Program-made: the position numbers and the translations under genes | Shown here: one piece after another, positions 25,711 through 42,307 of the stretch | Numbering within the stretch: position 1 is the stretch's first letter | Layout of the letters: each line of letters starts with the position of its first letter | Notes under the pieces: model-generated | The model's database searches: none | Told to the model about the DNA's origin: nothing | Seen by the model: the letters and a program-made list of their open reading frames with translations, nothing else | Assembly: GCA_026398275.1 (NCBI GenBank) | Contig: JAPLTF010000018.1 | Coordinates: 1-64,000, forward strand | Reading direction: 5' to 3' | DNA length: 64,000 nucleotides | Origin: Verrucomicrobiota bacterium | GTDB taxonomy: Bacteria; Verrucomicrobiota; Verrucomicrobiia; Chthoniobacterales; Terrimicrobiaceae

Positions 25711-27129
25711 TCACGGGGCGCCCATCGGGGTCTGACCCGCCAGGCGGACTGCCGCGCGCAGTCGCACAATGAATGTCGTGCCCATGCCCGGCTCACTCGC
25801 GACCTCAATGCTGCCGCCATGCTTTTCGACGATGGCTTTCGTGATCGACAGTCCAAGTCCGGAATGCTCCTGTCCGGCAGAACGCGCCTTTTCGGCGCGG
25901 TAGAAGCGCTCAAAAACATGAGGGAGATCGTCCGGAGGGATGCCCTGGCCGCTATCGGCTACGGTGAGGATCGCGCCATCGGCTTCCCGGCGGACCTCCA
26001 CCCGCACGCTGCCGCCGGGGCGGTTGTAGTGGATCGCATTGCCCACGATGTTGCCAACGGCCTGCGCGAGCTGCCCGGCGTTGCCTTCGCAACAGGCCGG
26101 GGCGACCTCCACGGAAATGTGAACATCTTTTGCCTCCGCCAAGGGCTTCAGCAAAGCAACGGAATCCGTGACGATGCGAGCCAAGTCGCAGAGCTCCATG
26201 GCCTCCGGCGCTTCGCACGAGTCGAACCTTGCAAGCACCAGCAGGGATTCGATCATCCCGCGCATGCGCCGGGCGGCACGCTGGCAGGCCGCAAGGCTTT
26301 CCCGGTATTCATCGGCCGGACGTTCCCTGGCAAGCGCGGACTGGGTCTGCGTGAGGATCACGGTGACAGGGGTGCGAAGCTCGTGCGAGGCGTCGGCGGT
26401 GAATTGGGCCTGCCGGGCGAAGGCGTCATCGAGCCGGGAGAATGTGTTATTGAGGTCGCGGGCGAGTTGGCCCAACTCGCTCTTGCTGTCGGCCGGTCGG
26501 ATGCGCTGGGAGAGATCGCCGGTCGAGATCTTCGCCGCGGTCGCGGTGATCCCCGCGATCGGGCTCAGGGCGCGGGCCGCAATCCACCATCCGCCTGCCA
26601 GCCCAAGCAGGAACACCGCTCCGCCGGATCCCCCCAGCAGCCACGCGGTGCGCCGGCTGCCCGCGATCTCCTCCCCGATGTCGCGACCCACGAGAACGCA
26701 TTCCCCCCCCGGGGTGTCGTGAAAGCTCTCGCGGAAGTTTCCGCGTGACCGGAATACCGGTGGCCCGGGAATCCGCTCAGGTTGAGGGATTTCGGACGGG
26801 GCAGACGCGGAAGCGTCACCCTGCCTCCCATCGCGCTGCCAGATGACATAATAAAACTCCTGCCCCGGCATGCCGGCGAAAAGGTTCTGCTCACGCGCCG
26901 TCCACCGCGGTTTGTCCGGCGGAGGAGGACTACCGGGGCCCGCGCCGTTGCGGGGGAGAAGGGAGGCCTCGACAAGGCCCATGCGCTGCTCCAGTTCATG
27001 GTCGGTGCGGTTCATCTGGTTCGCCCGTTGCAGTTGCCACGCAGTGAATCCGAAGCCCGCAAGCACGAGCGCGAGCAGTAGCCCGTGCCAGAGCTGCAGC
27101 CGCCAGCGGATGGAGTGGAAAAATTTCAT
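25711..27129 (-). CDS. sensor histidine kinase (QseC/PmrB-like)
   Basis: A 472-aa membrane kinase. A first membrane span lies at about 15-33. The periplasmic domain (34-160) has an unusual G/P-rich stretch, PRNGAGPGSPPPPDKPRW. A second span at about 162-185 leads to a HAMP region, HisKA with DASHELRTPV (phosphoacceptor His249), and a HATPase domain with VGNAIHYN, DSGQGIP and GLGLSI. It overlaps the response-regulator gene by ATGA. The system likely controls the divergent secreted-protein genes through the repeated CTTAAGGTT boxes. The signal is unknown; its P/G-rich sensor resembles tracts in the exported proteins it may regulate. Confidence 0.92.
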   Translation of the reverse strand: MKFFHSIRWRLQLWHGLLLALVLAGFGFTAWQLQRANQMNRTDHELEQRMGLVEASLLPRNGAGPGSPPPPDKPRWTAREQNLFAGMPGQEFYYVIWQRDGRQGDASASAPSEIPQPERIPGPPVFRSRGNFRESFHDTPGGECVLVGRDIGEEIAGSRRTAWLLGGSGGAVFLLGLAGGWWIAARALSPIAGITATAAKISTGDLSQRIRPADSKSELGQLARDLNNTFSRLDDAFARQAQFTADASHELRTPVTVILTQTQSALARERPADEYRESLAACQRAARRMRGMIESLLVLARFDSCEAPEAMELCDLARIVTDSVALLKPLAEAKDVHISVEVAPACCEGNAGQLAQAVGNIVGNAIHYNRPGGSVRVEVRREADGAILTVADSGQGIPPDDLPHVFERFYRAEKARSAGQEHSGLGLSITKAIVEKHGGSIEVASEPGMGTTFIVRLRAAVRLAGQTPMGAP

Positions 27130-27776
27130 CCAATACAGTAGCCGTGGCCGCGGCGGGTCTCGATCAGCCCATGGCCGAGCTTTTTGCGCAGGTTGGAGAC
27201 ATGCACGTCGAGCAGGTTCGAGAGCGAGTCTTCGTCCTCGTCAAAAAGGTGTTCGTAAAGAGCGGTGCGCGTGACCGTCTCACCGCGGTGCATGGCAAGA
27301 AATTCCAACAGGCAATACTCGCGCGCTGTGAGCTCGACGGAGTGTCCGTCAAGCTTGACCCGGCGGGCTGCGGTATCGATGGCCACACCGCCGACTTCGA
27401 TGACGTTCACCGTTTGTCCGGCCGCCCGCCGGATGATCGCCCGGAGCCGGGCGAACAGTTCCTCCAGATCAAAAGGCTTCACCAGATAATCGTCGGCGCC
27501 GGCGTCGAGTCCTCGCACGCGATCCTGCGCGGCATCGCGTGCAGTGAGCATGAGCACGGGCGTCCTCCTCGACTCCCGCAGGCGCTCGAGGACTTTCCAC
27601 CCATCCAGGAGCGGCAGCATGACGTCGAGCACGATCGCGTCATACGCGACCTCCGTCGATTTGTAGAGCCCCTCTTCGCCGTCCGCTGCGGCATCGACCG
27701 CATAGCCCTCCTCGCGCAAGGCTCTGGCCAGGCTTGTCAGGAGATCGACTTCGTCTTCGATCAGCAGGATTCTCAT
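27126..27776 (-). CDS. OmpR-family response regulator (QseB/PmrA-like)
   Basis: A 216-aa regulator. Receiver: acidic pair in LIEDEVD (Glu7, Asp8), phosphoacceptor Asp51 in VLDVMLPLLDG, Lys100 in DDYLVKPFDLEE. A winged-helix output follows with LTAREYCLLEFLAMHRGETV and LDVHVSNLRKKLG. This branch includes QseB and PmrA, which bind direct repeats of CTTAAGGTT-like half-sites. Three such boxes stand in front of nearby divergent genes. It is first in the two-gene operon with its kinase, 112 bp upstream of the nearest box on the opposite strand. Confidence 0.93.
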   Translation of the reverse strand: MRILLIEDEVDLLTSLARALREEGYAVDAAADGEEGLYKSTEVAYDAIVLDVMLPLLDGWKVLERLRESRRTPVLMLTARDAAQDRVRGLDAGADDYLVKPFDLEELFARLRAIIRRAAGQTVNVIEVGGVAIDTAARRVKLDGHSVELTAREYCLLEFLAMHRGETVTRTALYEHLFDEDEDSLSNLLDVHVSNLRKKLGHGLIETRRGHGYCIG

Positions 27777-27888
27777 GTTGTCAGCGCGAGATTACAACAG
27801 GGCGGCGGCATTTGGACAGAGCTGGCATGTGAAAATCCTGCCTGAAGCAACCTGAAGATGAGATGAAGAGAACCCCGCTTTTGTGCCC

Positions 27889-27908
27889 CTTCACGTTCCC
27901 TTAAGGTT
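27889..27908 (+). promoter_or_regulatory. box 1: putative response-regulator site before the membrane-protein gene
   Basis: CTTCACGTT-CC-CTTAAGGTT: two 9-bp half-sites with an 11-bp period, as for PmrA/QseB-type regulators. A weak -10 (CATGTT, 27917-27922) follows 8 bp downstream, and the assigned ATG is at 27951. The same box recurs at 29595 and 31907. Confidence 0.75.
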
Positions 27909-27950
27909 CCTTCGCGCATGTTTCCTCCGAAACGTCGGAGCACACTGAAA

Positions 27951-29561
27951 ATGGAGACACAAAAATGCAGAGCACTGATTGCGGATGACGGGCCGCCAAA
28001 CCGGCAAGGGTGGCCTATTGCGCTCGTGATCCTCGCCGCGGGCATCCTCAGGGGGAGCCTTCTTTTCGGCACCGCGCTCATGCCCGGGATGAACGGGGCC
28101 TATTACCTCGTCCAGGCGAGAGCGGTGCTCACCCACGGAACGCTGGGGCTTCCGGATCTGCCGCTCATATTCTACCTGCAGGCATCACTGGCGCGGGCCC
28201 TGCAGTGGATTTCCCGACGTGACCTTGAACCGTGCATCCTTTTCGCGGTGAAGCTGACGGATGCGATTCTTCCCGCATTGGTGGCGTTGCCCGTGGCATT
28301 GCTCGTGCGGCGCTGGACCAAAGCCGCGGGCGCTCCCGCCTGGATCGCTCCGACAGCCGCAGCCGCCGTGACGCTCAGCTCCCCGATATTGGGCATGGTC
28401 GGCAACTTTGAAAAAAACTCCCTCGCCCTGCTGTGGCTCTGCCTGCTCCTTCTCTTCATCCATCTGTGGCTGACGCGTCCGACTTTTCCAAGTGCGGTGG
28501 GGGTGCTTTGCTTCTGGGGGTTGGCCGCCCTGACGCACATCGGCGTGTTTGGAGCCACGGTGCTGTTCAGCGGTCTGGCGATCGCACTTTTCCTTGCGCT
28601 GCAACGTGGTCCGGAATGGCGCAAGATCTGGCCGCTGCTAGCCGCCGCCCTCGCCGTCGGCTCGATCGCGGCAGGGATCGTGATGTGGAAATTTGACGCC
28701 GCCCGTATCCAAAGGCTCGCGGAAGCGCTGATCCATCCCGCGGACTACCTGGCAGGCAGCAAAATGGGGCCTGGCCGCCCGGGTGGCAGCCACTCCCCAT
28801 TTTTCATTCTGCTGCAGGCCGGACCTTCATTGGTTTTTGCCGTCGCATCCATCGCGGCCCTGCTGACCTGCTGGCGGCGGCGGGCCGTGCTTCCGCCGGC
28901 GGATCTCTGCGTGGCGGGCGCGTGCGCGGTCGGAGTTCTGGTGATGACGGGGCCGTGGGTGCAGGGGGACAAGGCGCCCCGGTTTTTCCTCATTGCAATC
29001 GCTCCCGCAGTCATGGCTGCGGCTTTTGCCTTGATCCACTTCAATCACCGCCGGCTGCGTGCCGGGCTGGCCATCCTCGGCGCGGCCTGCATGATCGCCC
29101 CGTCAATTTTTGTGATCTGCGATGGCGGGAAGCCGGTCGTCAGCGAGGATGGCCTGAGCGAGCTGCGTTCGCTCGCCCCGATGATCGCCAATCCCAACAA
29201 AACGCTGATAGTAGCCAGGCATGGGATGGAATGGTGGACGGCTTGGGCACTGCACACCCATATCTCCCAAGTCCCCGCGTTGAGGAGCGCGGACTGGCAG
29301 AATTTCGAGGCCATCTATTTTCTCAGGTCCAAAATCGATAACCGTCCCGTGCCTGGTAGAGGACCCGGGGGATTTTCCATGCCTGGTATGTTCGGCGGCC
29401 CTCCGCCTCCGGGAGGCCGCCCCCCTGGAGGCCCCGCGCACAACGCGAATCCGATGGAAGACCCGGAGATTCCCCGGGATGCCGAGACCGTCCATGACGG
29501 GGACCAGTTTATCTTCTCCCGCGTCAGCGCGCCGCCGGGATTTGTTGCCGGGCAACCGTGA
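27951..29561 (+). CDS. polytopic membrane protein, glycosyltransferase-39/ArnT-like in layout
   Basis: A 536-aa protein with about ten hydrophobic helices. The first periplasmic loop has GMNGAYYLVQARAVLTHGTL and LPDLPLIFYLQASLARAL, the layout of C-type polyprenol-linked glycosyltransferases, though no sure catalytic Asp pair is seen. The C-terminal 60 residues are soluble and very rich in Gly and Pro (PGRGPGGFSMPGMFGGPPPP). ATG 27951 is preferred: GGAG lies upstream and the -10 of box 1 makes a start at 27918 too close to the transcription start. It is probably activated by the divergent two-component system. Confidence 0.7.
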   Translation: METQKCRALIADDGPPNRQGWPIALVILAAGILRGSLLFGTALMPGMNGAYYLVQARAVLTHGTLGLPDLPLIFYLQASLARALQWISRRDLEPCILFAVKLTDAILPALVALPVALLVRRWTKAAGAPAWIAPTAAAAVTLSSPILGMVGNFEKNSLALLWLCLLLLFIHLWLTRPTFPSAVGVLCFWGLAALTHIGVFGATVLFSGLAIALFLALQRGPEWRKIWPLLAAALAVGSIAAGIVMWKFDAARIQRLAEALIHPADYLAGSKMGPGRPGGSHSPFFILLQAGPSLVFAVASIAALLTCWRRRAVLPPADLCVAGACAVGVLVMTGPWVQGDKAPRFFLIAIAPAVMAAAFALIHFNHRRLRAGLAILGAACMIAPSIFVICDGGKPVVSEDGLSELRSLAPMIANPNKTLIVARHGMEWWTAWALHTHISQVPALRSADWQNFEAIYFLRSKIDNRPVPGRGPGGFSMPGMFGGPPPPGGRPPGGPAHNANPMEDPEIPRDAETVHDGDQFIFSRVSAPPGFVAGQP

Positions 29562-29594
29562 CTGCCGCAGAAAATTCCCCGGATTATTTTTTGT

Positions 29595-29626
29595 CTTCAC
29601 ATTCCCTTAAGGTTCGTCCGCATAAA
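29595..29626 (+). promoter_or_regulatory. box 2 with -10: regulated promoter of the first LTxxQ secreted protein
   Basis: CTTCACATT-CC-CTTAAGGTT at 29595-29614, then 6 bp, then CATAAA as -10 at 29621-29626. The box replaces the -35 element, the arrangement of an OmpR-family activated promoter. The gene starts at 29657. Confidence 0.8.
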
Positions 29627-29656
29627 CTGCAGCCAGTGAAAAACGATAAAGGCACC

Positions 29657-31210
29657 ATGAAAACACTGACACCCATTGCAATCGCGCTGGCACTGGCCGC
29701 GCTACCAACCAACGCCTCCGCGCAGCAGGGCGACCGCCAAGGACCGCCGCCCGGCGGAAAAGCGGAAGCGCTAACGGACGTGCAGGTGAAGCAGGTCGGC
29801 AGCATCCTTGCCGGATACGATGCGCAGACGCTCACCGCCGAACAGGCGCGAGCCATCCACGAGGCCTTTCACCAGGCCGGCCTCCCGGGCGGCCACGCGA
29901 TCAACGAGGCGGTCGCTGCGGCGGGCTTCAGCCCCGACAAGTTGCGCGACCTCGACCCTCCGCCGTCGGCACCCGGCGGAGGAGGCGGCCAGCACGCGGC
30001 GAAAAGCGTCGAGGAGAAACCTCCGCAGGGTGGCAAGGCAGGCGGGCCGCAGCAGTATTCCATCGAGCAGGCGGCGTCCGACAATGCGCAGCTCCACACG
30101 ATCGCGTTCAACGGGCTGGCGTTTGTCACCGGGGACTTCGGGGCCGACACGTTCCTGCCTCCGGGCAAGGTGTGCGACTTTTTCGGGTTCCAATATATGC
30201 GGGATATCGATGCCGCGCACAAGGGCCACAACCCGGTGTTTCTCGACCGCGTCGCGGGAAACGTATTGCAGGTCCTCACTGACGAGCAGCGCGCCGTGTT
30301 TGAAAAAGCCGCGCAGCAGGAGGCGGCGGAATTGCGATCGCTCGCCGAGAAGCGCCTGCCGCTCATCAAGGCGTTTTGCCGGCAGCTCGCCGGGGACATT
30401 CCCGCCGGAAGCCAGGGGCTGAACAAGGCTGCGGTGATAAAATACGTGGGCGACATCTTTGCCGCCGACGCGAAGGTGAGCTACCAACGCGCCCAGGTGT
30501 TCGGCCAGGTGGCATCCTCCTTGACCACGCAGCAGAAGGAATACCTCGCAAAAATGACGTTCGGCGACTTCAGCACATGGCCCGCCGTGGACATGGAGAA
30601 ATACAAGCTGCCCCGTGGCACGGAGAAGATGGTCAACGTCGCCTACATGACCTTCGCCAGCGAGTTCTTCAGCTGGTATGCGGGCTCGGTCAAGGCGGAC
30701 ACCTATTTCTGCCCGGAGCGTCACGGCACCTACTTCGGCGGGTTTTACATGAAGGACATGCCCGCGATGGGCAAGCGCGACTTCGACATCAGCACGTCCG
30801 TGACCGGCGACAGCGGCAAGGAGTTCCTCAACATCCTGACCGAAGACCAGCGCAAGCACATCACCGCCATCCCCGACCTGCAGCGCAAAGATCTTCAGGA
30901 AATCATCGGCGTGCGCGAATCTATCTCCAAGGAACTGCGCAAGTTTCTCAGCGGCGGCCAGGCGGACAAAACGACGGTGCTCGCGCTCGGGCGGCATTAC
31001 GGCGAACTCGATGGCGAGATGTCCTATTATTATGCGACCGCATTCGCGAAGGCGAACCGGACATTGACCGCCGACCAGCGCCAGTGCCTCGTCAAGCTGC
31101 GCAACCTCGACGGCTACACCAGCGCCCCGGCCTACATCTATTCGGACCCCGTCACCGAGCCGCCCAATCTGCCCGCGACGGATTTCTTCTTCTTTCCTCC
31201 AACAAGTTGA
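29657..31210 (+). CDS. large secreted protein with six LTxxQ motifs, family not recognised
   Basis: A 517-aa protein with a signal peptide (MKTLTPIAIALALAALPTNA, cut near SAQQ). LTxxQ-type motifs occur at 39, 59, 207, 289, 394 and 470 (LTDVQ, LTAEQ, LTDEQ, LTTQQ, LTEDQ, LTADQ), the pattern known from Spy/CpxP periplasmic chaperones, which are much shorter. G/P-rich tracts fill 25-35 and 100-132. A conserved block FFSWYAGSVKAD, YFCPERHGTYFGGFYMKDMP (337-370) is shared with the paralogue at 31972. Its promoter carries box 2. The PEBP gene overlaps its stop (TGATG). I infer an envelope role under the adjacent two-component system. Confidence 0.7.
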   Translation: MKTLTPIAIALALAALPTNASAQQGDRQGPPPGGKAEALTDVQVKQVGSILAGYDAQTLTAEQARAIHEAFHQAGLPGGHAINEAVAAAGFSPDKLRDLDPPPSAPGGGGGQHAAKSVEEKPPQGGKAGGPQQYSIEQAASDNAQLHTIAFNGLAFVTGDFGADTFLPPGKVCDFFGFQYMRDIDAAHKGHNPVFLDRVAGNVLQVLTDEQRAVFEKAAQQEAAELRSLAEKRLPLIKAFCRQLAGDIPAGSQGLNKAAVIKYVGDIFAADAKVSYQRAQVFGQVASSLTTQQKEYLAKMTFGDFSTWPAVDMEKYKLPRGTEKMVNVAYMTFASEFFSWYAGSVKADTYFCPERHGTYFGGFYMKDMPAMGKRDFDISTSVTGDSGKEFLNILTEDQRKHITAIPDLQRKDLQEIIGVRESISKELRKFLSGGQADKTTVLALGRHYGELDGEMSYYYATAFAKANRTLTADQRQCLVKLRNLDGYTSAPAYIYSDPVTEPPNLPATDFFFFPPTS

Positions 31211-31863
31211 TGGGCTTAACCCCAAAATCAAATCCGGCACCACGCTCATCCACGGCAGCGTTAAAGATTTTCCTGACAGCCGCCATGATCGCCGGGCAGC
31301 TGGTCGGCCCGATGGCGGCGCAGGATCCCGGGCCGGCCCGGTTTGTGCTCCGCAGCCCCGAGGTGGCCGACGGCGGAATTCTGCCCGTGGATTTCACCGG
31401 CGACGGCAGCGGCGCGACGCTCCCTTTGGAGTGGGACGGGGTGCCGCAGGGAACCGCGAGCTTCGCGGTGATCATGCACCACGTGGATCCGGAGGGAATG
31501 ACGAAGTGGTATTGGACGCTCTACAACATTCCGGCGGACGTCCGCAGTCTGCCAAAAAATGTCAAGGGCGTCGGAACGCTTGGCAACAACAGCGTCAATG
31601 GCCGGACCGCATACGCGCCCCCTCACTCCAGGGGGCCGGGAGAAAAGACCTATATCTACACCGTCTATGCGCTGTCCGCGCCGCCGCAACTCGGAGTCGA
31701 GCCGGCGAATGTCAGCCGCGAGGTTCTGCTTGCCGCCATCAAGGACAGCATTCTCGCCAGCGCGGAACTGAAGGTCGTTTACACGCGCCAGGGCGCTCAG
31801 GGAGCGCATGACGGTGGCTCGGGCGATGGCCGGGGCGTGCCGCCGCCTCCGCGCGGGCGGTGA
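31210..31863 (+). CDS. exported PEBP-family protein (YbhB/YbcL-like)
   Basis: A 217-aa protein with an N-terminal signal or anchor (AALKIFLTAAMIAGQLVGPM). The phosphatidylethanolamine-binding fold is shown by LPLEWDGVPQGTASFAVIMH, HVDPEG, WYWTLYNIPADVRSLP and GRTAYAPPHSRGPGEKTYIY with the family's GP-x-x-x-H-like pocket partly changed. It ends in a Gly/Pro-rich tail (GRGVPPPPRGR). Bacterial members bind small anionic or lipid head groups; their role is unclear. ATG 31210 shares one base with the preceding TGA, so translation is coupled to the LTxxQ protein. Confidence 0.85.
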   Translation: MGLTPKSNPAPRSSTAALKIFLTAAMIAGQLVGPMAAQDPGPARFVLRSPEVADGGILPVDFTGDGSGATLPLEWDGVPQGTASFAVIMHHVDPEGMTKWYWTLYNIPADVRSLPKNVKGVGTLGNNSVNGRTAYAPPHSRGPGEKTYIYTVYALSAPPQLGVEPANVSREVLLAAIKDSILASAELKVVYTRQGAQGAHDGGSGDGRGVPPPPRGR

Positions 31864-31906
31864 GGACGCTTCCGACGCTTCCGTTTTGCGGATTTCCCCT
31901 CATCGT

Positions 31907-31938
31907 CTTCACGTTCCCTTAAGGTTCCCCCGCATAAA
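31907..31938 (+). promoter_or_regulatory. box 3 with -10: regulated promoter of the second LTxxQ secreted protein
   Basis: CTTCACGTT-CC-CTTAAGGTT at 31907-31926, then 6 bp, then CATAAA at 31933-31938. Spacing and -10 are the same as in box 2. The gene starts at 31972. Confidence 0.8.
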
Positions 31939-31971: not shown

Positions 31972-33684
31972 ATGAAAAAACTCATCCCTTTTCTTGTGGC
32001 GGCCATCTCCGTCTGCACCGGGCAGACCGGCAGCGGCACGACCCCGCCTGCCTTCACGATGGAGCAAAGCATCTCCGACGGGGCGCAGCGCGCGACGCTC
32101 GCGTTTGCCGGGCTCGCCATGATGACCGGGAACCTGCCAGCCCAGTCGTTCTTTCCCCCCGGCAAGGTGGCCGACTACACGGGCTTCCAGTATCTGCGCG
32201 ACAACGACCCCGACAATATGGGCCACAACACGAGCTTCCTGACGAGGGTCGCCAATAACGTCCTCTACATTTTGAGCGACAGCCAGCTCGCCCAGCTGAA
32301 AACGCTCGCCCTGGCGCAGCAGGATCAGATCACCCTTTACGGCTACAAGCGGTTCGCGCTGATGAAGGCATTCCGCCGGCTCCTCGACGGTGACGTCCCC
32401 GCCGGTGCGACCGGACTCGATCTCCTGGCCGTGAAGCAGGCATCGAAAGAGCTCTACCGCATCGACGGCCAGATCAGCTTCGACCGCGCCCTGCTCTACG
32501 CCTCGATCTTCAGCTCCATGAATTTCACACAGACGGCATATCTCGACGCGATGAAGGGCAAGGGATTCAACTCCTGGCCGGACATTTCGAACGACTTGGT
32601 CCGGGAAAAAACGAAGGGTCTGAGCCAGGGTGAAGCGGTCGCCGTGATGACCTATGCCGGCGACCTCTTTAGCTGGTATGCTGGTTCGCTGGATGCGGAT
32701 GTCTATTTCTGTCCGGAGCGCCACGGGACGTATTTCGGATCGTTCTACATCAAGGACGCGCCCGCGATCGGCCACGAGGGATACAGCATCGACGAGCAGC
32801 TCACCGCGACAGCGGGCGCCGCCCTTTGTGACAGCTCGAAGGGATACGTCACCGCCGGCCAGGCGAGCGCGATGTCGAGCCTCGTGAGCGCGCAGCGAAA
32901 CAACCTTTATGCCGGAACCACCAGCATTGTTTCCATCAGGACGCAAATCGCCTCCCTGCTGCGCGGCCTCATGGTTTCGACCGCTTCGAGCGCCAGCGTC
33001 AACGCCCAGGTCCTCGCGCTTTCGGAGATCTATGGAGGGCTCGACGGCGAGAACAACTTCAACTACGCGACCGTCTTCGCTTCTGTTTACAGCACGCTCA
33101 CCGACGCCCAGTTGGCCGGCCTCGCGGCCCTTCGGAAATCCATCATGTCCGGGACATACTCCGATGGAACCGCATTCGATTTTTCGGTCTGCACAACACC
33201 GTTCCTCTACTCCGCCGCCATCACGGATCAGTCCGTCCTCGCCCCCTACATCGCCGACACCGGCTATCTGTTTTCATCGGCACTTGGGTCCGCCGCTCCC
33301 TGGCGGCAGCAATATTTCGGGACAGCCGAAAATGCCGGATCCGCCGCCGATTCGTCCGATCCTGATGGCGACGGCCTTACGAACGCCAGGGAATACGCGT
33401 TGGGCACCGACCCCACGACCTCCGATACGGGCGGGCTCCTTGGCCTGGCACCTGCCGCCAATAATCTCTCGCTCACATTTTTCGGGCGGCAAGCCGCCGG
33501 GGCTGGCTATGTCGGATTCACCCGGCACTACTGCGTGGAAGGCACCGGCAATCTGGCCGACCCCGCTTCCTGGACGCCCGTTATAGGCTTTGCTGACATC
33601 GTTGGCTCGGACCGAGCCGTGACCCTGAAGCAGCCCATCACCGGAACCAAATACTTTTTCCGCCTACGGGTTTGGCTGCAATAA
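31972..33684 (+). CDS. large secreted protein, paralogue of the 29657 gene, with Ca-binding-type tail
   Basis: A 570-aa protein with signal peptide MKKLIPFLVAAISVCTGQTG. It shares with the upstream paralogue TMEQSISDG, FFPPGKVADYTGFQYLRDND, GHNTSFL, and the block LFSWYAGSLDAD, YFCPERHGTYFGSFYIKDAP. LTxxQ-like motifs are fewer (LSDSQ, LTDAQ). A C-terminal extension contains SSDPDGDGLTNAREYALGTD, a thrombospondin-3-like acidic repeat common at C-termini of PVC-group exported proteins, then a beta-rich domain ending YFFRLRVWLQ. The G/P-rich tracts of the paralogue are missing. ATG 31972 gives a perfect signal peptide; a frame from 31939 would start at the expected transcript start. Confidence 0.72.
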   Translation: MKKLIPFLVAAISVCTGQTGSGTTPPAFTMEQSISDGAQRATLAFAGLAMMTGNLPAQSFFPPGKVADYTGFQYLRDNDPDNMGHNTSFLTRVANNVLYILSDSQLAQLKTLALAQQDQITLYGYKRFALMKAFRRLLDGDVPAGATGLDLLAVKQASKELYRIDGQISFDRALLYASIFSSMNFTQTAYLDAMKGKGFNSWPDISNDLVREKTKGLSQGEAVAVMTYAGDLFSWYAGSLDADVYFCPERHGTYFGSFYIKDAPAIGHEGYSIDEQLTATAGAALCDSSKGYVTAGQASAMSSLVSAQRNNLYAGTTSIVSIRTQIASLLRGLMVSTASSASVNAQVLALSEIYGGLDGENNFNYATVFASVYSTLTDAQLAGLAALRKSIMSGTYSDGTAFDFSVCTTPFLYSAAITDQSVLAPYIADTGYLFSSALGSAAPWRQQYFGTAENAGSAADSSDPDGDGLTNAREYALGTDPTTSDTGGLLGLAPAANNLSLTFFGRQAAGAGYVGFTRHYCVEGTGNLADPASWTPVIGFADIVGSDRAVTLKQPITGTKYFFRLRVWLQ

Positions 33685-33779: not shown

Positions 33780-35108
33780 ATGAAAAGATCCCTCGCTATT
33801 GTTGTTCTCGCCTCCGGTTTTGCGTTTGCCGGCGATGTCTCTTATCCCGTCGTCGGAACCGGGCAGTCCAAGTGCTACGACGATCAAAGTGAAATCCCTC
33901 CGCCGCAGCCCGGGCAGCCGTTCTTCGGGCAGGACGCCCAGCAGCACAGCCCGCAGGCTTCCTATGCGCTCGGTGCGGATGGCCGGACGGTTCAGGACAA
34001 AATCACCGGACTCACCTGGCAGCGGAGCCCGGACACGAATGGCGACGGCAAGCTCGACCGCAGCGACAAGCTGACATTGGCGCAGGCTCAGGCGTTGCCA
34101 GCGAAGCTCAACGCGGCGAAGTTCGGCGGGTTCGACGACTGGCGGCTGCCGTCGATCAAGGAACTGTATTCGCTCTTCGACGCGCGCGGGACCGATCCCA
34201 GCGGGCCATCCAATGCGGATACTTCCTCGCTCGCGCCGTTCATCGACACGAAGTTTTTCCAGTTCGCCTACGGGGACACGGGCAAAGGCGAGCGCGTCAT
34301 CGATTCCCAATACGCCTCGTCCACGAAGTATGTCGGCAAGGGAGCCCGCGGGTTCGACAAGCTCTTCGGCGTGAATTTCGCGGACGGACGGATCAAGGGA
34401 TACGACCTGTTCATGCCGGGCGGACGCGAGGAAAAGACATTTTTCGTGCAGTGCCTGCGAGGGAATTCCGGCTACGGGAAAAATGATTTTCACGACAGCG
34501 GCGACGGCACGGTCACCGACCGGGCCACCGGCCTGATGTGGTCGAAGGACGACAGCGGCACCGGCATGAACTGGCGCGACGCGCTCGCCCGGGTGGAAAA
34601 AATGAACGCGGAGAAATTTCTCGGCCACGGCGACTGGCGGCTCCCGGACGTGAAGGAATTGCAGAGCATCGTGGACTACTCGCGTTCGCCCGACACGACG
34701 GGTTCACCCGCGATCGACCCCGTCCTTCAATGCACGGCGATCACCAACGAGGACGGCAAGGCGGACTTCCCGTTCTACTGGTCGGCGACGACGCATGCCG
34801 GGCTCCATGGCGGCGGGGCCGCGATGTATGTGGCCTTCGGGCAGGCGGCGGGATGGATGTCTCCGCGCGCCCAGGCAGGCGGACCGCCGCCGGAACGGCC
34901 CGGCTTTCCGCCCGGCCCTCCGCCGCAGCAGGGGAACGAAGCCGGCCCCTATCACTTCGTCGATGTCCACGGCGCCGGCGCGCAGCGCAGCGATCCGAAG
35001 TCCGGCGATCCCGCGATGTTCCCGCACGGGCGCGGCCCGCAGGGAGACGTCATCCGCATCAACAACTTCATCCGCATCGTCCGAAATGTGGAGGGTTCTG
35101 CCCCATAA
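33780..35108 (+). CDS. secreted protein with two DUF1566 (Lcl C-terminal) domains
   Basis: A 442-aa protein. Signal peptide MKRSLAIVVLASGFAFAGDV. Two copies of the DUF1566 module are clear: TVQDKITGLTWQRSPDTNGD with FDDWRLPSIKELYSLFD, and GTVTDRATGLMWSKDD with HGDWRLPDVKELQSIVDYSR. A Gly/Pro-rich insert (GGPPPERPGFPPGPPPQQ) precedes the C-terminus. A good ribosome site (GGAG, 7 bp upstream) fixes ATG 33780. It follows the LTxxQ paralogue by 95 bp without its own box, so it may read from box 3. DUF1566 is a lectin-like adhesion-type fold of unknown ligand. Confidence 0.85.
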   Translation: MKRSLAIVVLASGFAFAGDVSYPVVGTGQSKCYDDQSEIPPPQPGQPFFGQDAQQHSPQASYALGADGRTVQDKITGLTWQRSPDTNGDGKLDRSDKLTLAQAQALPAKLNAAKFGGFDDWRLPSIKELYSLFDARGTDPSGPSNADTSSLAPFIDTKFFQFAYGDTGKGERVIDSQYASSTKYVGKGARGFDKLFGVNFADGRIKGYDLFMPGGREEKTFFVQCLRGNSGYGKNDFHDSGDGTVTDRATGLMWSKDDSGTGMNWRDALARVEKMNAEKFLGHGDWRLPDVKELQSIVDYSRSPDTTGSPAIDPVLQCTAITNEDGKADFPFYWSATTHAGLHGGGAAMYVAFGQAAGWMSPRAQAGGPPPERPGFPPGPPPQQGNEAGPYHFVDVHGAGAQRSDPKSGDPAMFPHGRGPQGDVIRINNFIRIVRNVEGSAP

Positions 35109-35116
35109 AAACAGCG

Positions 35117-36646
35117 ATGAACCCGCCATTCTTTGTAGAAAACACATCGTGGCATGGGCATCTTGCCCATGTCTTGCTGGATTGTTACGCATGGGCAGGA
35201 TGCCCATGCCACGGGAGCAGACCTTCCCGCAAACCTCTGATCGATGGTTTCTACCGGGTAGCCCCGTCACTGTTCGCTCTCATTATTCCACTCATTTTCC
35301 TGGCCGCAAGCCTTCCGCTCGCAGCGAAGCCGCCGAACTTTGTCGTCGTCCTTGGCGAAGGTCACGGATGGAGCAGCACGTCGGTGCAGATGGACGACGC
35401 CGTGCCCTCATCGAAGAGCGCGGACGTCGTCACACCGAACCTCGAAACTCTCGCGCAGGGCGGAATGCGGTTCGCGAATTTCTACGCGGCCTCGCCGCGA
35501 TGCACGCCATCGCGGGCCGCGATCTTCACCGGAAAGAGCCCGGCGGCATTGCACATGACATTTGTCGGCGAGGGAAAGGCGGACAACCGGGGAGCGGCGA
35601 ACGGCCGGGTCATCCCCCCCGACTGCTCGATCGAACTTCCCGCCGGAGAAACAACGATCGCCGAATTCCTGAAAGCGGACGGCTATGCGACCGCCCACTT
35701 CGGGAAATGGCATGTCGGGCGCGCGGACCCGTCGCTCCATGGGTTTGACGAAAGCGACGGCCCGACGAACAACGGCGGGCCGGAAAATGTCCCGCATCCC
35801 CATCCGAAGCAGCTCTTCGGAATGACCGAACGCGGCATGGATTTCATGGCCCGCCAGGTCAAGGCCGGCAAGCCGTTCTACCTCCAGCTCTCGCACTACG
35901 CGTTCCGGCACGCGGAGGGCGGCAGGCGGGAAGCGGCGAAGCCCGAAGATTCTGCATCGCAGGATCCCGCCCAGGCGGAGGCCGACCTCGATGTCGCGTT
36001 CGGGGTGCTTCTAAAAAAACTCGCCGGGCTCGGCATCGCGGCCAACACCTACGTCATCTTCACGACCGATCACGGCTCGCCGGGAAGGAACCCTCCGCTG
36101 GCCGGAGGCAAGGGAACGGTTTCCGAGGGCGGGCTGCGCGTGCCGTTCATCATCCGCGGGCCGGGGATCCAGCCCGGCACATGCTCGCATGTCCGGGCGG
36201 AGGACGAGGACATTTTTCCAACGATCGCCGCGCTCGCGGGCATCACGCGGGCGCTGCCAGTGGGCATCGAAGGCAGCAGCCTGACCGCCGTTCTCCACGA
36301 CGCGGACAAGGGCGTGGTGAAGCGCCCGCGCGAGGAGTTCGTCGTCCACTTTCCGCACTACGACAAAGATTCCGCCGGCCCGGCGTCTGCGATCCTGCTG
36401 GGCGATTTCAAGCTCGTCCGCATTTACGAGACCGGCGCGCTGCGGCTCTACAACATCGCGCAGGATCCCGGCGAACGCCGCGACCTCGCCGCCGAAATGC
36501 CGGAAAAATCCAAGGAACTGAATGCGCGGCTCACCGCCTACCTCGATTCCGTCCGCGCCCAGATGCCGGTCCCGAATCCGAATTACGATCCCTCGAAGCC
36601 GGCGGACGCCCCGCGCGGCGGCGGAAAAGGAAGGCCGCAGTCATGA
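35117..36646 (+). CDS. exported sulfatase of a variant subfamily
   Basis: About 509 aa. The core matches type I sulfatases: FYAASPRCTPSRAAIFTGK with the formylglycine Cys129 in C-x-P-S-R, HFGKWHVGRADP, FTTDHGSPGRNPPLAGGKGT and EGGLRVPFIIRGPG. The first metal-binding motif, normally an Asp pair in LxxDDxG, reads VVVLGEGHGWSST, so both Asp are absent; a subfamily of this type exists in Planctomycetes. No maturase is adjacent. The start is uncertain: ATG 35117 makes the first 36 residues run through a palindromic repeat, ahead of the real signal segment (SLFALIIPLIFLAASLPLAA). A non-ATG start after the repeat is possible. Confidence 0.8.
   Translation: MNPPFFVENTSWHGHLAHVLLDCYAWAGCPCHGSRPSRKPLIDGFYRVAPSLFALIIPLIFLAASLPLAAKPPNFVVVLGEGHGWSSTSVQMDDAVPSSKSADVVTPNLETLAQGGMRFANFYAASPRCTPSRAAIFTGKSPAALHMTFVGEGKADNRGAANGRVIPPDCSIELPAGETTIAEFLKADGYATAHFGKWHVGRADPSLHGFDESDGPTNNGGPENVPHPHPKQLFGMTERGMDFMARQVKAGKPFYLQLSHYAFRHAEGGRREAAKPEDSASQDPAQAEADLDVAFGVLLKKLAGLGIAANTYVIFTTDHGSPGRNPPLAGGKGTVSEGGLRVPFIIRGPGIQPGTCSHVRAEDEDIFPTIAALAGITRALPVGIEGSSLTAVLHDADKGVVKRPREEFVVHFPHYDKDSAGPASAILLGDFKLVRIYETGALRLYNIAQDPGERRDLAAEMPEKSKELNARLTAYLDSVRAQMPVPNPNYDPSKPADAPRGGGKGRPQS
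35148..35213. repeat. inverted pair of palindromic repeats (family 3)
   Basis: Arms 35148-35171 and 35190-35213 are inverted copies differing at one of 24 positions. Each contains the hairpin CATGGGCA-TCT-TGCCCATG or its near copy. The pair lies in frame with the 5' end of the sulfatase, so it would encode HGHLAHVLLDCYAWAGCPCH if the ATG at 35117 is used. Confidence 0.85.
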
Positions 36647-36665: not shown

Positions 36666-36793
36666 GCCCGCGAATAACGCAAAAGGACGCGAATGAGAGG
36701 GCTTTGGAACTTGCCGGATTCAAACTGCGGGGGATTCCGTAATTCTGCCTGTCTGCCCGAATATATTCGCGTTCATTCGCGTAATTCGCGGGC
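36666..36793. repeat. inverted repeat with CGCGAAT units
   Basis: The left arm GCCCGCGAATAACGC... (36666-36696) and right arm ...GCGTAATTCGCGGGC (36766-36793) are inverted copies with a changed centre. Units of CGCGAAT-type sequence recur at about 10-11 bp within each arm. It fills the gap before the metallophosphatase gene. The organisation matches the CGCAGAT repeats at 54-59 kb although the core differs. Confidence 0.7.
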
Positions 36794-36809
36794 AAATGCC
36801 GGATTGAGA

Positions 36810-38216
36810 ATGCGGTTTTTGCTGTTCGCTTTGCTGGCGGTCGCGTTTGTTGCGCGAGCTGAGGACGCGCCTCCCGGACGCGCCGGCGGGCCGCGCATGC
36901 CGGCACAAGAATCGAGATGCAACGATGTGCCGGCCCATCCGTTCGACATCGTCCTCGGCCGGCCCGAAGCAGGTTCGGTCACGGCCAGCGTTCTTTGCTA
37001 CGCGGATGACAGAGGATTCATCGCCTACGGAACCGAACCGGGAAAACTCACCTCCAAGACGCCCGCTCAAACATTCAAAAATGGCGAGCCCGCAGAAATC
37101 GTATTGTCGGCGCTCAAGCCGGACACCCGATATTACTACGAGCTGCATCTCGGCCAAACCGTTAGCCCGGAGTTTTCGTTCCAGACCGCGAGGCCGCCAG
37201 GCAAAGCCTTCACGTTCACGGTCACGGCGGACTCCCACCTCGACTCCAATACGGATCCCGCCACCTACCAAAACACCCTCGCCAACGCGCTCGCGGACAA
37301 GCCGGATTTTCACGTCGACCTCGGCGATACTTTCATGAGCGAAAAGCACGGGAACCGCGAAGCCGCCGCCAAACAATACCTCGCCCAGCGCTACTATTTC
37401 GGACGGCTCTGCGGCTCCGCGCCGCTGTTTTTCGTGCTCGGAAACCACGACGGAGAAAGCCTGCGCGGGCGGGGCGACGAAGGCCTTGCCGTCTGGTCGG
37501 CCCTTACGCGCAAGCGCTATTTTCCAAATCCCGTTCCCGACAAATTCTACTCGGGCGACGGATTCCAGCAGGCCGAAGCCGGCCTGCTGCAGGACTACTA
37601 TGCGTGGGAATGGGGCGACGCCCTCTTCGTTGTGCTCGATCCGTTTTGGTTTACGCAAAAGGGACACGGCCGCGGCGACAACTGGAGGCGCTCGCTCGGC
37701 ATCGACCAATACCTGTGGCTCAAGCGCACGCTTGAAGCCAGCCGCGCCAAATTCAAATTCGTCTTCATCCACCATCTCGTTGGTGGAGCCGACGACCAAT
37801 GCCGCGGCGGCGCGGAAGCGGCGCCGTTCTATGAATGGGGAGGAAAGAACGCCGACGGCTCCGACGGCTTCGCGCAGAACCGCCCCGGCTGGCCCGCGCC
37901 GATCCACGAGCTTCTGAAGAAGAACCATGTCTCCATCGTGTTCCACGGCCACGACCACCTCTACGCGAAACAGGACCTCGACGGGATCGTTTACCAGGAA
38001 GTCCCGCAGCCCGGCTGCCCGGGCGACGGCAGGCCCCCGCGCTCGGCCGCCGATTACGGCTACGCAAGCGGCACCATCCTCGGAAGCTCAGGATACATGC
38101 GTATCACCGTCTCGCCGCAAGCAACCGAGGTTGGTTATGTCCGCTCCATTTTACCAAAGGATGAAGCCGGAGCGCTCCAAAACGGATCACTCGCGGACCA
38201 TTACAAGCTCCGGTGA
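36810..38216 (+). CDS. exported purple-acid-phosphatase-like metallophosphoesterase
   Basis: A 468-aa protein with signal peptide MRFLLFALLAVAFVARAEDA. A fibronectin-III-like N-terminal domain (ADDRGFIAYGTEPGKLTSKT, IVLSALKPDTRYYYELHLG) precedes the catalytic domain. Metal ligands are seen in order: TADSHLD, VDLGDTF, VLGNHDGES, FIHHLVGGA and FHGHDHLYA. This is the classic dinuclear metallophosphatase set. The region after the signal peptide is Gly/Pro-rich (PPGRAGGPRMP). ATG 36810 fits the signal peptide; 39 extra codons upstream run through an inverted repeat. It lies 163 bp after the sulfatase and is convergent with the large membrane-protein gene. Confidence 0.87.
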   Translation: MRFLLFALLAVAFVARAEDAPPGRAGGPRMPAQESRCNDVPAHPFDIVLGRPEAGSVTASVLCYADDRGFIAYGTEPGKLTSKTPAQTFKNGEPAEIVLSALKPDTRYYYELHLGQTVSPEFSFQTARPPGKAFTFTVTADSHLDSNTDPATYQNTLANALADKPDFHVDLGDTFMSEKHGNREAAAKQYLAQRYYFGRLCGSAPLFFVLGNHDGESLRGRGDEGLAVWSALTRKRYFPNPVPDKFYSGDGFQQAEAGLLQDYYAWEWGDALFVVLDPFWFTQKGHGRGDNWRRSLGIDQYLWLKRTLEASRAKFKFVFIHHLVGGADDQCRGGAEAAPFYEWGGKNADGSDGFAQNRPGWPAPIHELLKKNHVSIVFHGHDHLYAKQDLDGIVYQEVPQPGCPGDGRPPRSAADYGYASGTILGSSGYMRITVSPQATEVGYVRSILPKDEAGALQNGSLADHYKLR

Positions 38217-38225
38217 CCAAACCTG

Positions 38226-41200
38226 CTACGCCGGCGGGTCAAGCGGCGGCGGGACGGGCGTCGTCTTCTTCGACCAACCCCGGAAGCACCCGCCTGTGCT
38301 GAAGCGCACCCATGCGAGGCGCAGCCAGCGGAGCAGTGAGGCCGCCAGCCACAACGCCCAGGCCAGCATGAGCAGTCGGAACCACCAGATCGAAACCGAC
38401 AGACAACCGGGCTGCGGAAGGATCTCGCCACACCGGGCCTGATACCAGCGCAGCGCGCTGCGCGTTGATCCGTTGCCGGCGATGAACATCTCGGGATTTC
38501 CCAGAAGCCCCTCGGCTACGACCGCCACGAAGACCCCCAGCGCAATGGCAGTCAGCGCGATCAGCACCACCTGCAATAAATTGAATCCCCACGTCGGCAG
38601 GCGGATGAACGAATCCGTTCCGCGCCACGAGAGATAAAACAGCCAGCCGACCACGAGCAGCGCCGCAGGCAGCGGCACCTGAGTGAGCCCGATCCCGAGG
38701 AGCATCCACTCAGCAATTCCCAGCGGGGAAAATACGAGCCGGCCAAGCATCCAGGCCGCAAGGAGCGAACAGGCCAGCACGGTCCAGAACCGCACCGCCG
38801 GCCCCCGCAGCGGACCATCTGCCCACAGAACCCAGCGGCTGTCGGGGATATTGATCACGGTGTTGATGTTCGCGCTGCCGACCGGAAGCTTCACCTCCTC
38901 GACGCGCGAGCGGATCCCCGACGGCGCGTTGGTTTTCCATTCGACCTGAACGGCCTGCTCGCCCGGACGGAGCGGGACGATCAGGTTGCGCGAATCCATC
39001 CTCGCGGGAATGGCGGCCCCGTTCAGCGTGAGCGAGGTGACCTCCGCATCGGTGGGCAGCGTGATCGAAAAATCCTCTCCCAGACTGCAGCGCAGGCCGA
39101 GGCTCAATACCGAGGTCATCTGCCGCATGCCGGGCGTGACCTCGTGCGTGGCTTTTTCCACGGTGACGGTCGCCCCCGGAATCGCCTCCGGACGGCTGAT
39201 CCCGAGCTTCACGCTTTCGCCCGGCCAGGGATGCCACACAGGCACGAGGTCCGGATTGCCGGGTTCAAACACGGGCGCAAGACCGGATATCGAAACATTC
39301 CAGACAGGCGATGCAACAAGCTGCCAGACTTCAACCCAGGAATCCGCGGCGCCCGCGGCGAGAGACAGCGACGCAGAAGGGCTCAGCTCGCTCTCCCACT
39401 GAAACGCCTCCTGCTGGGCACCGAGCCGGACCTCGATGAGCCCGTCCTTGATTTGTGCGTTCGAGGTCAGCACATTCTCGCCCTCGAGCAGCGGAACGCG
39501 CAGCGCGATCGCCTTGCCGCCGGGCGAGAGCCGGGTCACCGTCGTGCGCACCTGCCAGACCAAGCCGAGCTCGATCCGGCGTTCGACCGAGGCCAGCGCC
39601 GTGAAATCCTGCCGGTCGTAGGCGGCCTCGCCGGGGGTTGATTTCAGGATCTTCGTGAAAAACACCTGCTGGTCCGGAACGCCTTCCGCAGAAACGCCGT
39701 TGACCGTCCACTCAGGCGCCTCGATGACCACCGAGCGCGGCTTGAGAAGAAACGTCCACTCCCAGTCCGGCACATCGGAGAGCAGGCCCGTCACCTTCAC
39801 CTGGTGCACCCCCTGCGGCACGGGAATCCAAAGGTAGCCATCATCGCGGCGCAACGCGGCCGCTGGCTTTCCATCGAGCAGAACCGATCCCGGCGACCAT
39901 GCGGGCAGGCGTCCGGGAAGCGGCACTGCAACGGCAATCGTGGCATTGACCTCGACGTCCATCTCCATGCGGTTGCCCGCGAGTCGCAACGTCGCGCGTG
40001 GAATCGCGGCGGCATTGGGATACGCATCGGAATTCTCCGTGAGCCGGGTGCGCAGAGTGTTGAGTAGCTGCTCGTCCGGCAGCTGGGCATTCGCCGTGGG
40101 TAGAAAAATCAGGAATGCCAGCAGGGCAGCAGGCCGCCCCACGGACGGAACCGCCACGCGCCCCCCGCGCAGCAACAGCCCCGCAAGCCCGAGAACCAAC
40201 GCCACACGCAGGACCGCGAGCAGGCGCTCCAGAGCAATCGGCACCATGACCGGTCGGATGACCTGCGCCGCGGTCACCGGACCGTTCCATCCGAACGACA
40301 CGCTGCGCCATGTCCAGTCCGGAACCCCCGGGCCGGTTTGGATGCGTGCCTTCGTGTCGTAGGTGAGGTTTGACGTGTCTTTTGCTTTATCGGCTCGTCC
40401 CGCCACATTCCTTGACAAAAAATCATAGGAGGAATCACCGGCTACCGGGGCAGCGGGCATGGCCTCGGCGAGAGCCTGATTTGCAACCTCTCCCCGCAAA
40501 GCCACCGGAGCGTCCACAAGCGACGGATGCTCCATCTGCGGATAAATCGCCTGCTGGATCTGGCGGGAGGCGAACGGAACAACGATGAAAATGAAGGCGG
40601 CGATGATGATCCATTTTCCTGCGAGGAGGATCCGTCTCCCCCAGCCTCCCCTGACGACGCGCAACAGCGCGAGCGGGATCAGCAGCCAGAGCCAGATGTA
40701 GCGCGGGGCGCAGGGCTCGTGGTAGGCAAGGCCGAAGGCGACAAAGGCAAGGACCGCCACCCGCCAGCCCCAGAGCTTCCCAACGGCGAGAGAGAAAATC
40801 AGGAGCAGAAAAAGATCGAGGAGCGTCCAGGCAGTCAGCCAGTCGCCCTGGACCCAATCCGCGCCGAAGAGCGCGAACAGCCGCCATCCGGGAGGAAGGT
40901 TCAATGTCACGCGGAGCGCGTCGGCATCGGTCTGCCATCCGCTCGCGGAGATTTTTCCGGTGCGCTCCATGCGGCCCGTCGCCTCGAGGTTGACCGCCCG
41001 GGAACGGATCTCCACACCCGGGGCATCATTCACCGGGCTGCGCGTGATCAACTGCCCGCTGCCATCGCTGCGCACGGATCCGAGGTCCTGTCCTTTGGTG
41101 ACATCGAGCCTCCAGATTTCCTGCATCTGCCCGGTGAGCCGGTCGCGAAATGTGAAAGCCTTTCCATCTTCGTCGAGCCACCACTCGCGGGCAATGCTCA

Positions 41201-42242
41201 GCCCCGCGGGCTTCTGCAGCCCCATACCGCGCATGCGCTCGTCGATGCGGAACGGGGTCGACGTGTCCCAGCGGTAAACCGGGAGCTCGCGCCACTGCTC
41301 GGGAAAGGCAATCTGCGAAACATCCACCGACGGGCTTCCGACGATCTCGACCATGCGGAAATCCGGGCGCGAACGGAACGCGATCAGCTCGTCCGCCGCT
41401 GCGGGTTCGATGCCGGGCGCAAAACCGAATTCCTTCGGGTTATCGAGCCGGAACGCAGAAAATTTCACCGTCCACTTTCCCGGGCGCACCTGCGCCTTCA
41501 TCCGCCCGTCCTCGTCCACGGCCACAGGAATCGGCCCTTCGAGCGAGGCCAGCTTCCAGCCCTGCGGCAGCACGGCGCCCAGCGCCTCCTCGCGGCTTTT
41601 GCCGGAGACGATCAGCTCGACCTCGCCGCGCAGCCAGAGCGGGATCCCGTCCTCGAGCTCAGCGAAGAGCTTCACGGAAAGAAAGTCCTTGTCGGCCTCG
41701 CCGCTCGAGGCATTGCGCTCGAGCCAGAGCTGGCCGGAGGCGTCCCAGAGCGGGTTCTCAACCGGCTTGCCGTCGAGCGTGAGCGTGATGATTCCGACCG
41801 ACACCGGAAGCGCGAGCTTCTGCGGGATCTTTTTCCACTCGATCCCGCCCTCGATCCGGTGGATCCCCGGCTGAAGCTTGACCTCCGGGCGCCCGTCGTG
41901 TTCGACCACCGCCACCGCCGCCCCGTCGGACTTCACACCCTGCGGCCAATGGCCGCCACCTCCCGGAAGCGGAACCCACGACTCGCTGAACACCGATACC
42001 GAAAAATCAAATCGCGCGCCGGTCGTTCCCACGTCGAGCGAGAGCTTCGACGGCCAGAGGCACAGGTGCTTGTCCGCATCATTATACGGAGTCGGGCAGG
42101 GGCGGTGATCCTGCCCCCAGAGCACCCATCCCTCCCATGCGCGGAGCGGCTCGGGTATCCGGGGGTCGGAAGATGTTGCGGCGGATACCACACCGCAAGC
42201 CGCCAGGAGGATCAGAACCGGTGAAAAAACGGAGAGTTTCAT
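38226..42242 (-). CDS. very large multi-domain membrane protein, function unknown
   Basis: A 1338-aa protein. It has a lipoprotein-like or cleavable signal (MKLSVFSPVLILLAACGVVS). About 430 residues of beta-rich extracytoplasmic domain follow (for example YRWDTSTPFRIDERMRGMGL). A group of four or five membrane helices lies near 460-560 and another near 670-715. A second extracytoplasmic beta-rich part is followed by C-terminal helices from about 1160 onward. The Cys in LAAC could be a lipobox. I recognise no named family; similar giant proteins occur beside envelope genes. No partner is adjacent: it is convergent with the metallophosphatase and divergent from the transposase. ATG 42242 gives the signal sequence directly. 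Confidence 0.75.
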   Translation of the reverse strand: MKLSVFSPVLILLAACGVVSAATSSDPRIPEPLRAWEGWVLWGQDHRPCPTPYNDADKHLCLWPSKLSLDVGTTGARFDFSVSVFSESWVPLPGGGGHWPQGVKSDGAAVAVVEHDGRPEVKLQPGIHRIEGGIEWKKIPQKLALPVSVGIITLTLDGKPVENPLWDASGQLWLERNASSGEADKDFLSVKLFAELEDGIPLWLRGEVELIVSGKSREEALGAVLPQGWKLASLEGPIPVAVDEDGRMKAQVRPGKWTVKFSAFRLDNPKEFGFAPGIEPAAADELIAFRSRPDFRMVEIVGSPSVDVSQIAFPEQWRELPVYRWDTSTPFRIDERMRGMGLQKPAGLSIAREWWLDEDGKAFTFRDRLTGQMQEIWRLDVTKGQDLGSVRSDGSGQLITRSPVNDAPGVEIRSRAVNLEATGRMERTGKISASGWQTDADALRVTLNLPPGWRLFALFGADWVQGDWLTAWTLLDLFLLLIFSLAVGKLWGWRVAVLAFVAFGLAYHEPCAPRYIWLWLLIPLALLRVVRGGWGRRILLAGKWIIIAAFIFIVVPFASRQIQQAIYPQMEHPSLVDAPVALRGEVANQALAEAMPAAPVAGDSSYDFLSRNVAGRADKAKDTSNLTYDTKARIQTGPGVPDWTWRSVSFGWNGPVTAAQVIRPVMVPIALERLLAVLRVALVLGLAGLLLRGGRVAVPSVGRPAALLAFLIFLPTANAQLPDEQLLNTLRTRLTENSDAYPNAAAIPRATLRLAGNRMEMDVEVNATIAVAVPLPGRLPAWSPGSVLLDGKPAAALRRDDGYLWIPVPQGVHQVKVTGLLSDVPDWEWTFLLKPRSVVIEAPEWTVNGVSAEGVPDQQVFFTKILKSTPGEAAYDRQDFTALASVERRIELGLVWQVRTTVTRLSPGGKAIALRVPLLEGENVLTSNAQIKDGLIEVRLGAQQEAFQWESELSPSASLSLAAGAADSWVEVWQLVASPVWNVSISGLAPVFEPGNPDLVPVWHPWPGESVKLGISRPEAIPGATVTVEKATHEVTPGMRQMTSVLSLGLRCSLGEDFSITLPTDAEVTSLTLNGAAIPARMDSRNLIVPLRPGEQAVQVEWKTNAPSGIRSRVEEVKLPVGSANINTVINIPDSRWVLWADGPLRGPAVRFWTVLACSLLAAWMLGRLVFSPLGIAEWMLLGIGLTQVPLPAALLVVGWLFYLSWRGTDSFIRLPTWGFNLLQVVLIALTAIALGVFVAVVAEGLLGNPEMFIAGNGSTRSALRWYQARCGEILPQPGCLSVSIWWFRLLMLAWALWLAASLLRWLRLAWVRFSTGGCFRGWSKKTTPVPPPLDPPA

Positions 42243-42307
42243 GGCCCCGACATTGAACATCCCCCAGAGTCCAGATGCCAGTGGAATTTCCGCTTCGTCA
42301 CGCGACT

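Follow-up and report, generated by a model that had tools for sequence, protein, structure and literature searches.

The window analysed here, a stretch of 64,000 nucleotides from a member of the Verrucomicrobiota, carries the same direct repeat upstream of several genes for exported or membrane proteins, beside the genes of a two-component system (TCS), and the question that it raises is whether these repeats make up a regulon of that system. Our answer is that the OmpR-family regulator encoded there, together with its partner kinase, probably binds the repeats, switches on three operons for envelope proteins and also regulates the operon of the TCS itself (we put the probability of this reading at roughly 0.84). 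Binding by the regulator, activation rather than repression and the extents of the operons are what we infer; Table 1 lists the features of the locus.

Table 1. Features of the candidate regulon, in window coordinates
Feature	Position	Strand	Basis or remark
Sensor histidine kinase (HAMP, HisKA, HATPase_c), overlaps regulator gene	25711..27129	-	domain search
OmpR-family response regulator, proposed box-binding protein	27126..27776	-	domain search; PmrA-like recognition helix SLSNLLDVHVSNLRKK
Box 4, CTTCATCTCATCTTCAGGTT, upstream of response-regulator gene	27849..27868	-	half-site relaxation; proposed autoregulation
Box 1, CTTCACGTTCCCTTAAGGTTC, upstream of membrane-protein (glycosyltransferase-like) gene	27889..27909	+	exact pattern match
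Target 1, membrane protein with about 10 transmembrane segments	27951..29561	+	transmembrane segment count
Box 2, CTTCACATTCCCTTAAGGTTC, upstream of G4-PEBP pair	29595..29615	+	exact pattern match
CATAAA, -10-like element of box 2	29621..29626	+	read from sequence
Target 2 (G4), exported, tandem duplication of LTxxQ/Spy-like helical domain	29657..31210	+	weak LTXXQ match
PEBP (YbhB/YbcL) family protein; start overlaps G4 stop	31210..31863	+	domain search
Box 3, CTTCACGTTCCCTTAAGGTTC, upstream of G6, then Lcl_C, sulfatase and phosphatase genes	31907..31927	+	exact pattern match
CATAAA, -10-like element of box 3	31933..31938	+	read from sequence
Target 3 (G6), exported G4 paralogue, C-terminal TSP3-like repeat	31972..33684	+	41% identity to G4
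Lcl_C-domain protein, without a box of its own	33780..35108	+	domain search
Sulfatase-domain ORF; true start further in	34538..36646	+	domain search
Purple-acid-phosphatase-like metallophosphoesterase	36693..38216	+	domain search

The first-pass annotation of this DNA had described three boxes upstream of genes for exported or membrane proteins, two of them with a CATAAA 6 bp after GGTT, and an OmpR-family regulator gene divergent from box 1, and each of these points holds. The pattern CTTCACRTTCCCTTAAGGTTC has three exact matches within the window (boxes 1 to 3), all intergenic, and none in 100 dinucleotide shuffles even with three mismatches allowed (0 expected); the window box is laid out as CTTCAC-GTTCC-CTTAAG with an 11-bp period. 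Box 1 precedes the membrane-protein gene and boxes 2 and 3 precede genes for proteins with signal-peptide-like N-termini, the CATAAA element is present at boxes 2 and 3 and absent from box 1, and domain annotation identifies the divergent gene as that of an OmpR-family regulator. The extent of the regulon had been drawn from these three boxes, and relaxing the half-sites revealed a diverged fourth copy (box 4) that had been missed, as had the occurrence of the system in other phyla; box 4 lies 20 bp from box 1 and faces the response-regulator gene. The shorter consensus TTCAY-N6-TTCAY, with one mismatch allowed, occurs 5 times in the window against 9.4 expected, which is no excess over chance, and so it carries information only at promoters and when loci are compared with one another.

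The same annotation had proposed a scan of the genome and had named random genome-wide occurrence of the pattern as the outcome that would speak against a regulon; no such occurrence was seen. With up to two mismatches, the degenerate 20-mer finds only the four window boxes and one poor site on another contig of the 4.66-Mb genome, and a second pattern finds the three boxes and one poor site. Among 57 other genomes near that of the window, G4 is present in a single one (same genus, 90% identity), and the locus L018, which lies on the same contig of that genome (G001 C151) and does not represent a second independent genome, has boxes at the matching places upstream of the membrane-protein gene and of G4 (boxes 1 and 2). 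The box upstream of G4 is also conserved in a third genome (L019). In alignments with these relatives, the box and the -10 region form a conserved island in diverged intergenic flanks, the -10 position of box 2 reading CGTAAT in two aligned relatives. At the promoter of the L018 regulator no box was seen, and other ORFs intervene there between the regulator and box 1; the extra ORFs relative to the window (L018 2650-3430) include, by eye, one that is topoisomerase zinc-finger-like and one that resembles an S23-like four-helix bundle.

It is very improbable that the boxes are alike merely through copying of promoters, for example in the duplication that gave G4 and G6, and have no present regulatory role. 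The two genes are indeed paralogues (41% identity) and boxes 2 and 3 share a few flanking letters, but the gene behind box 1 is unrelated to them, the box is kept between species where its flanks have diverged, and boxes 2 and 3 remain one base apart although the paralogous coding sequences have fallen to 41% identity.

Of 388 genomes of the phylum, 7 contain exact window-type patterns, which outside the genome of the window lie in unrelated contexts, so that the module cannot be recognised by the pattern alone. Elsewhere in the phylum, further genomes (L115, L116, L117, L118 and L121, four of these from one genus) carry perfect and even triple CTTAAGGTT repeats with an 11-bp period upstream of unrelated genes, and these are probably another PmrA-like regulon. 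The genome of locus L075 (G058) has two further window-type boxes, a short distance apart, near a phosphatase gene (contig C6, 1509-1819; L099 and L100), on a different contig from its G4 module.

The regulator consists of receiver and Trans_reg_C domains and is encoded next to a kinase, as in TCSs of the OmpR/PhoB family, and the boxes, with head-to-tail half-sites of 11-bp period near the promoter core, have the form of a direct-repeat regulon of that family, for which head-to-tail sites are typical (PMC8041468). They share with OmpR/PhoB-family operators in general the arrangement of half-sites, the period and a -10 shortly downstream, and differ in the particular half-site and in the set of targets. 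Among the closest known systems is PmrA/BasR of Salmonella, Klebsiella and Acinetobacter, whose box consists of CTTAAG/CTTAAT-type direct hexamers with a 5-bp gap (PMC3973317), also given as TTTAAG-N5-TTTAAG (PMC10927774). Compared with a YTTAAK-type hexamer-N5-hexamer site, the spacing and the second half-site (CTTAAG, a PmrA half-site) fit, and the first half-site, CTTCAC, differs. BasR/PmrA is among the best structurally known matches of the regulator, and of the DNA-contacting residues of PmrA (PMC3973317) the recognition helix keeps N188, H193 and N196, with T187S, K153R and H195S changed.

The description of the regulator as PmrA/QseB-type stands for PmrA in geometry and, in part, in half-sites and recognition helix, and falls short at the equivalog cutoffs of both proteins: the regulator scores 215.7 bits against the PmrA model NF007928 (cutoff 330) and 182.7 bits against that of QseB (cutoff 345). 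It would thus work like PmrA, yet by the NCBIfam cutoff does not count as a PmrA orthologue. The targets in the window are not among the known lipid A modification genes, so no polymyxin-type function follows. The regulator and kinase are also similar to the heavy-metal systems CzcRS/CopRS, both below cutoff (214.8 bits against 279.2 for TIGR01387, and 280.3 bits against 292.55 for the heavy-metal kinase subfamily model), and the operator in the window is a direct repeat, not an inverted one as in those systems. From the LTxxQ domains and the heavy-metal-type similarity of the kinase we would guess that the signal is envelope or metal stress.

The position of the boxes relative to the promoter bears on the sign of the regulation. 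With the second half-sites of 33 direct-repeat boxes (most of them collected by script, several by eye) placed in register, agreement with TATAAT was highest 10 bp further on (3.2 of 6 positions on average), with at least four matches at that distance in 16 of the 33 and most of the others at 8, 9 or 11 bp; the repeat therefore occupies the place of the -35. The -10 of boxes 2 and 3 lies 9 bp past the second half-site, and the -10 candidates of boxes 1 and 4 match poorly (3 of 6), that of box 4 being CAGGAT at 11 bp. A fixed distance to the -10, with the box replacing the -35, is the geometry of activators, as at PhoB and PmrA promoters. The adjacent regulator might instead bind the boxes as a repressor, covering the -35 region and blocking polymerase until a signal relieves it, and the overlap of the box with the expected -35 position would suit this; we regard it as unlikely, since we see no good -35 in the sequence that the boxes occupy, and we take the fixed distance to be that of -35-replacing activators. 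With the regulator as an activator, the partner kinase would phosphorylate it, the phosphorylated protein would bind CTTCAC-N5-CTTAAG as a head-to-tail dimer with an 11-bp period and substitute for the -35, and RNA polymerase would use a -10 about 9-11 bp downstream. Box 1 would then serve the membrane-protein gene, box 2 the G4-PEBP pair and box 3 the G6-Lcl-sulfatase-phosphatase series, with box 4 placing the TCS operon under its own regulator.

The membrane protein of target 1 has no Pfam or NCBIfam match; taken by eye, it would be a GT-C/PMT-like glycosyltransferase. The two halves of G4 align with each other (E 1e-10) and contain six LTxxQ motifs, and its predicted model is largely helical (mean pLDDT 80). 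G4 had no sequence match in the PDB, and a Foldseek search found no solved relative (the top hit had an E of 0.098, and TM-scores of about 0.14 are meaningless). The G4 family has a near-invariant motif, F-C-P-E-R-H-G-T-Y-F-G, besides the duplicated LTxxQ architecture. No boxes precede the sulfatase and purple-acid-phosphatase-like genes; convergent with the latter is a minus-strand gene for a 1344-aa membrane protein (38226-42260).

Searching with G4 gave 80 loci in more than 10 phyla (45-90% identity), which share the G4/G6, phosphatase, PEBP and Lcl genes in varying order; many are contigs of metagenome-assembled genomes (MAGs), and related loci are not independent. About 30 of the 80 have an OmpR-type TCS inside the fetched stretch. 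In a search for an 11-bp period that was free of any given letters, these TCS loci were found to carry matched direct repeats upstream of the regulator and of module genes, and module loci with an OmpR-type TCS carry matched boxes of their own, either TTCAY-N6-TTCAY or TTAC-N6-GTAA. Among TTCAY pairs in upstream sequence, one spacing stands out sharply: the 30 TCS loci have 14 pairs 11 bp apart and no more than 0-3 at each of the other spacings, while the antisense strand gives 3 and the 51 loci without a TCS give 1. Loci without a TCS have mostly neither direct nor inverted repeats; L087 has a box and no TCS.

In Clostridium magnum (L077), the layout matches that of the window, with three boxes, upstream of the regulator, of a GT2-GtrA-YkcB glycosyltransferase operon and of G4. 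The box preceding this operon recalls YkoGH-ykoST of Bacillus subtilis, where a TCS controls a membrane glycosyltransferase pair (PMC5836110); exported LTxxQ, phosphatase and PEBP genes are not reported there. Serine-recombinase-like and integrase-like ORFs (by eye; L077 495-1913 and 13105-14240) flank the C. magnum module and are consistent with mobility. On the G4 tree the phylum label has to change 23 times, where 13 would be the minimum, which suggests transfer between phyla, an excess that MAG binning errors and paralogues can also produce.

Other module loci have in common an upstream inverted repeat, ATTACAANNTTGTAAT-like (TTAC-N6-GTAA), and it is in these loci and not elsewhere that TTAC..GTAA pairs show a peak, at a spacing of exactly 10 bp. 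Operators resembling ATTACAA-NN-TTGTAAT lie near the regulator and module promoters of L023, L026, L027, L034, L048, L055, L059, L061 and L072. The regulators of the inverted-repeat loci form one clade (100/100 support) and those of the direct-repeat loci several other deep clades; the regulators of the window and of L018 pair together. With the clade label taken from the regulator tree, inverted repeats are found in 7 of 10 loci of the clade and in 0 of 16 other TCS loci, and direct repeats in 0 of 10 and 7 of 16, respectively (Fisher p 0.0002 and 0.017, both optimistic given the relatedness of the loci). The type of operator thus goes with the clade of the regulator, and nothing else argues as strongly for the box being read by the adjacent regulator.

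The boxes could nevertheless be operators of another OmpR-family regulator elsewhere in the genome, the neighbouring TCS being incidental; the genome does encode at least four more OmpR-like regulators of full length, of which the most similar shares 49% identity with that of the window, and L075 has window-type boxes without a TCS within the fetched stretch. We consider this quite unlikely, given box 4 at the TCS promoter, the near absence of the box elsewhere in the genome, the match of operator type to the clade of the adjacent regulator in other loci, and the three paralogues checked, whose recognition helices differ and whose upstream sequences lack the box. The local regulon of the adjacent TCS proposed in the first-pass annotation is thus upheld, as a prediction, by near-exclusive boxes, box 4, footprint-like conservation, the distance to the -10 and the agreement of clade and operator.

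A wider reading, which we hold tentatively and would rate somewhat below even odds, is that this envelope module (the duplicated LTxxQ protein, the purple-acid-phosphatase-like enzyme, PEBP and the Lcl_C protein) has repeatedly been placed under different OmpR-family TCSs while spreading across phyla, with operators rewritten to suit each. If so, the window would be one outcome, with a PmrA-like operator, of recurrent replacement of regulator and operator.

This type of regulon is already known; in a literature search covering few subscription journals we could not find a published description of the module or anything relevant on the TTCAC-type repeat. A complete candidate regulon, comprising regulator, operator and four promoters, can here be assigned, purely from sequence, to a TCS whose lineage is uncultured, and the loci in many phyla permit regulator clade to be compared with operator. 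The set of clades and operators would offer a natural experiment in how DNA specificity changes within the OmpR family, and the regulated promoters may give a handle on a widespread module of exported proteins.
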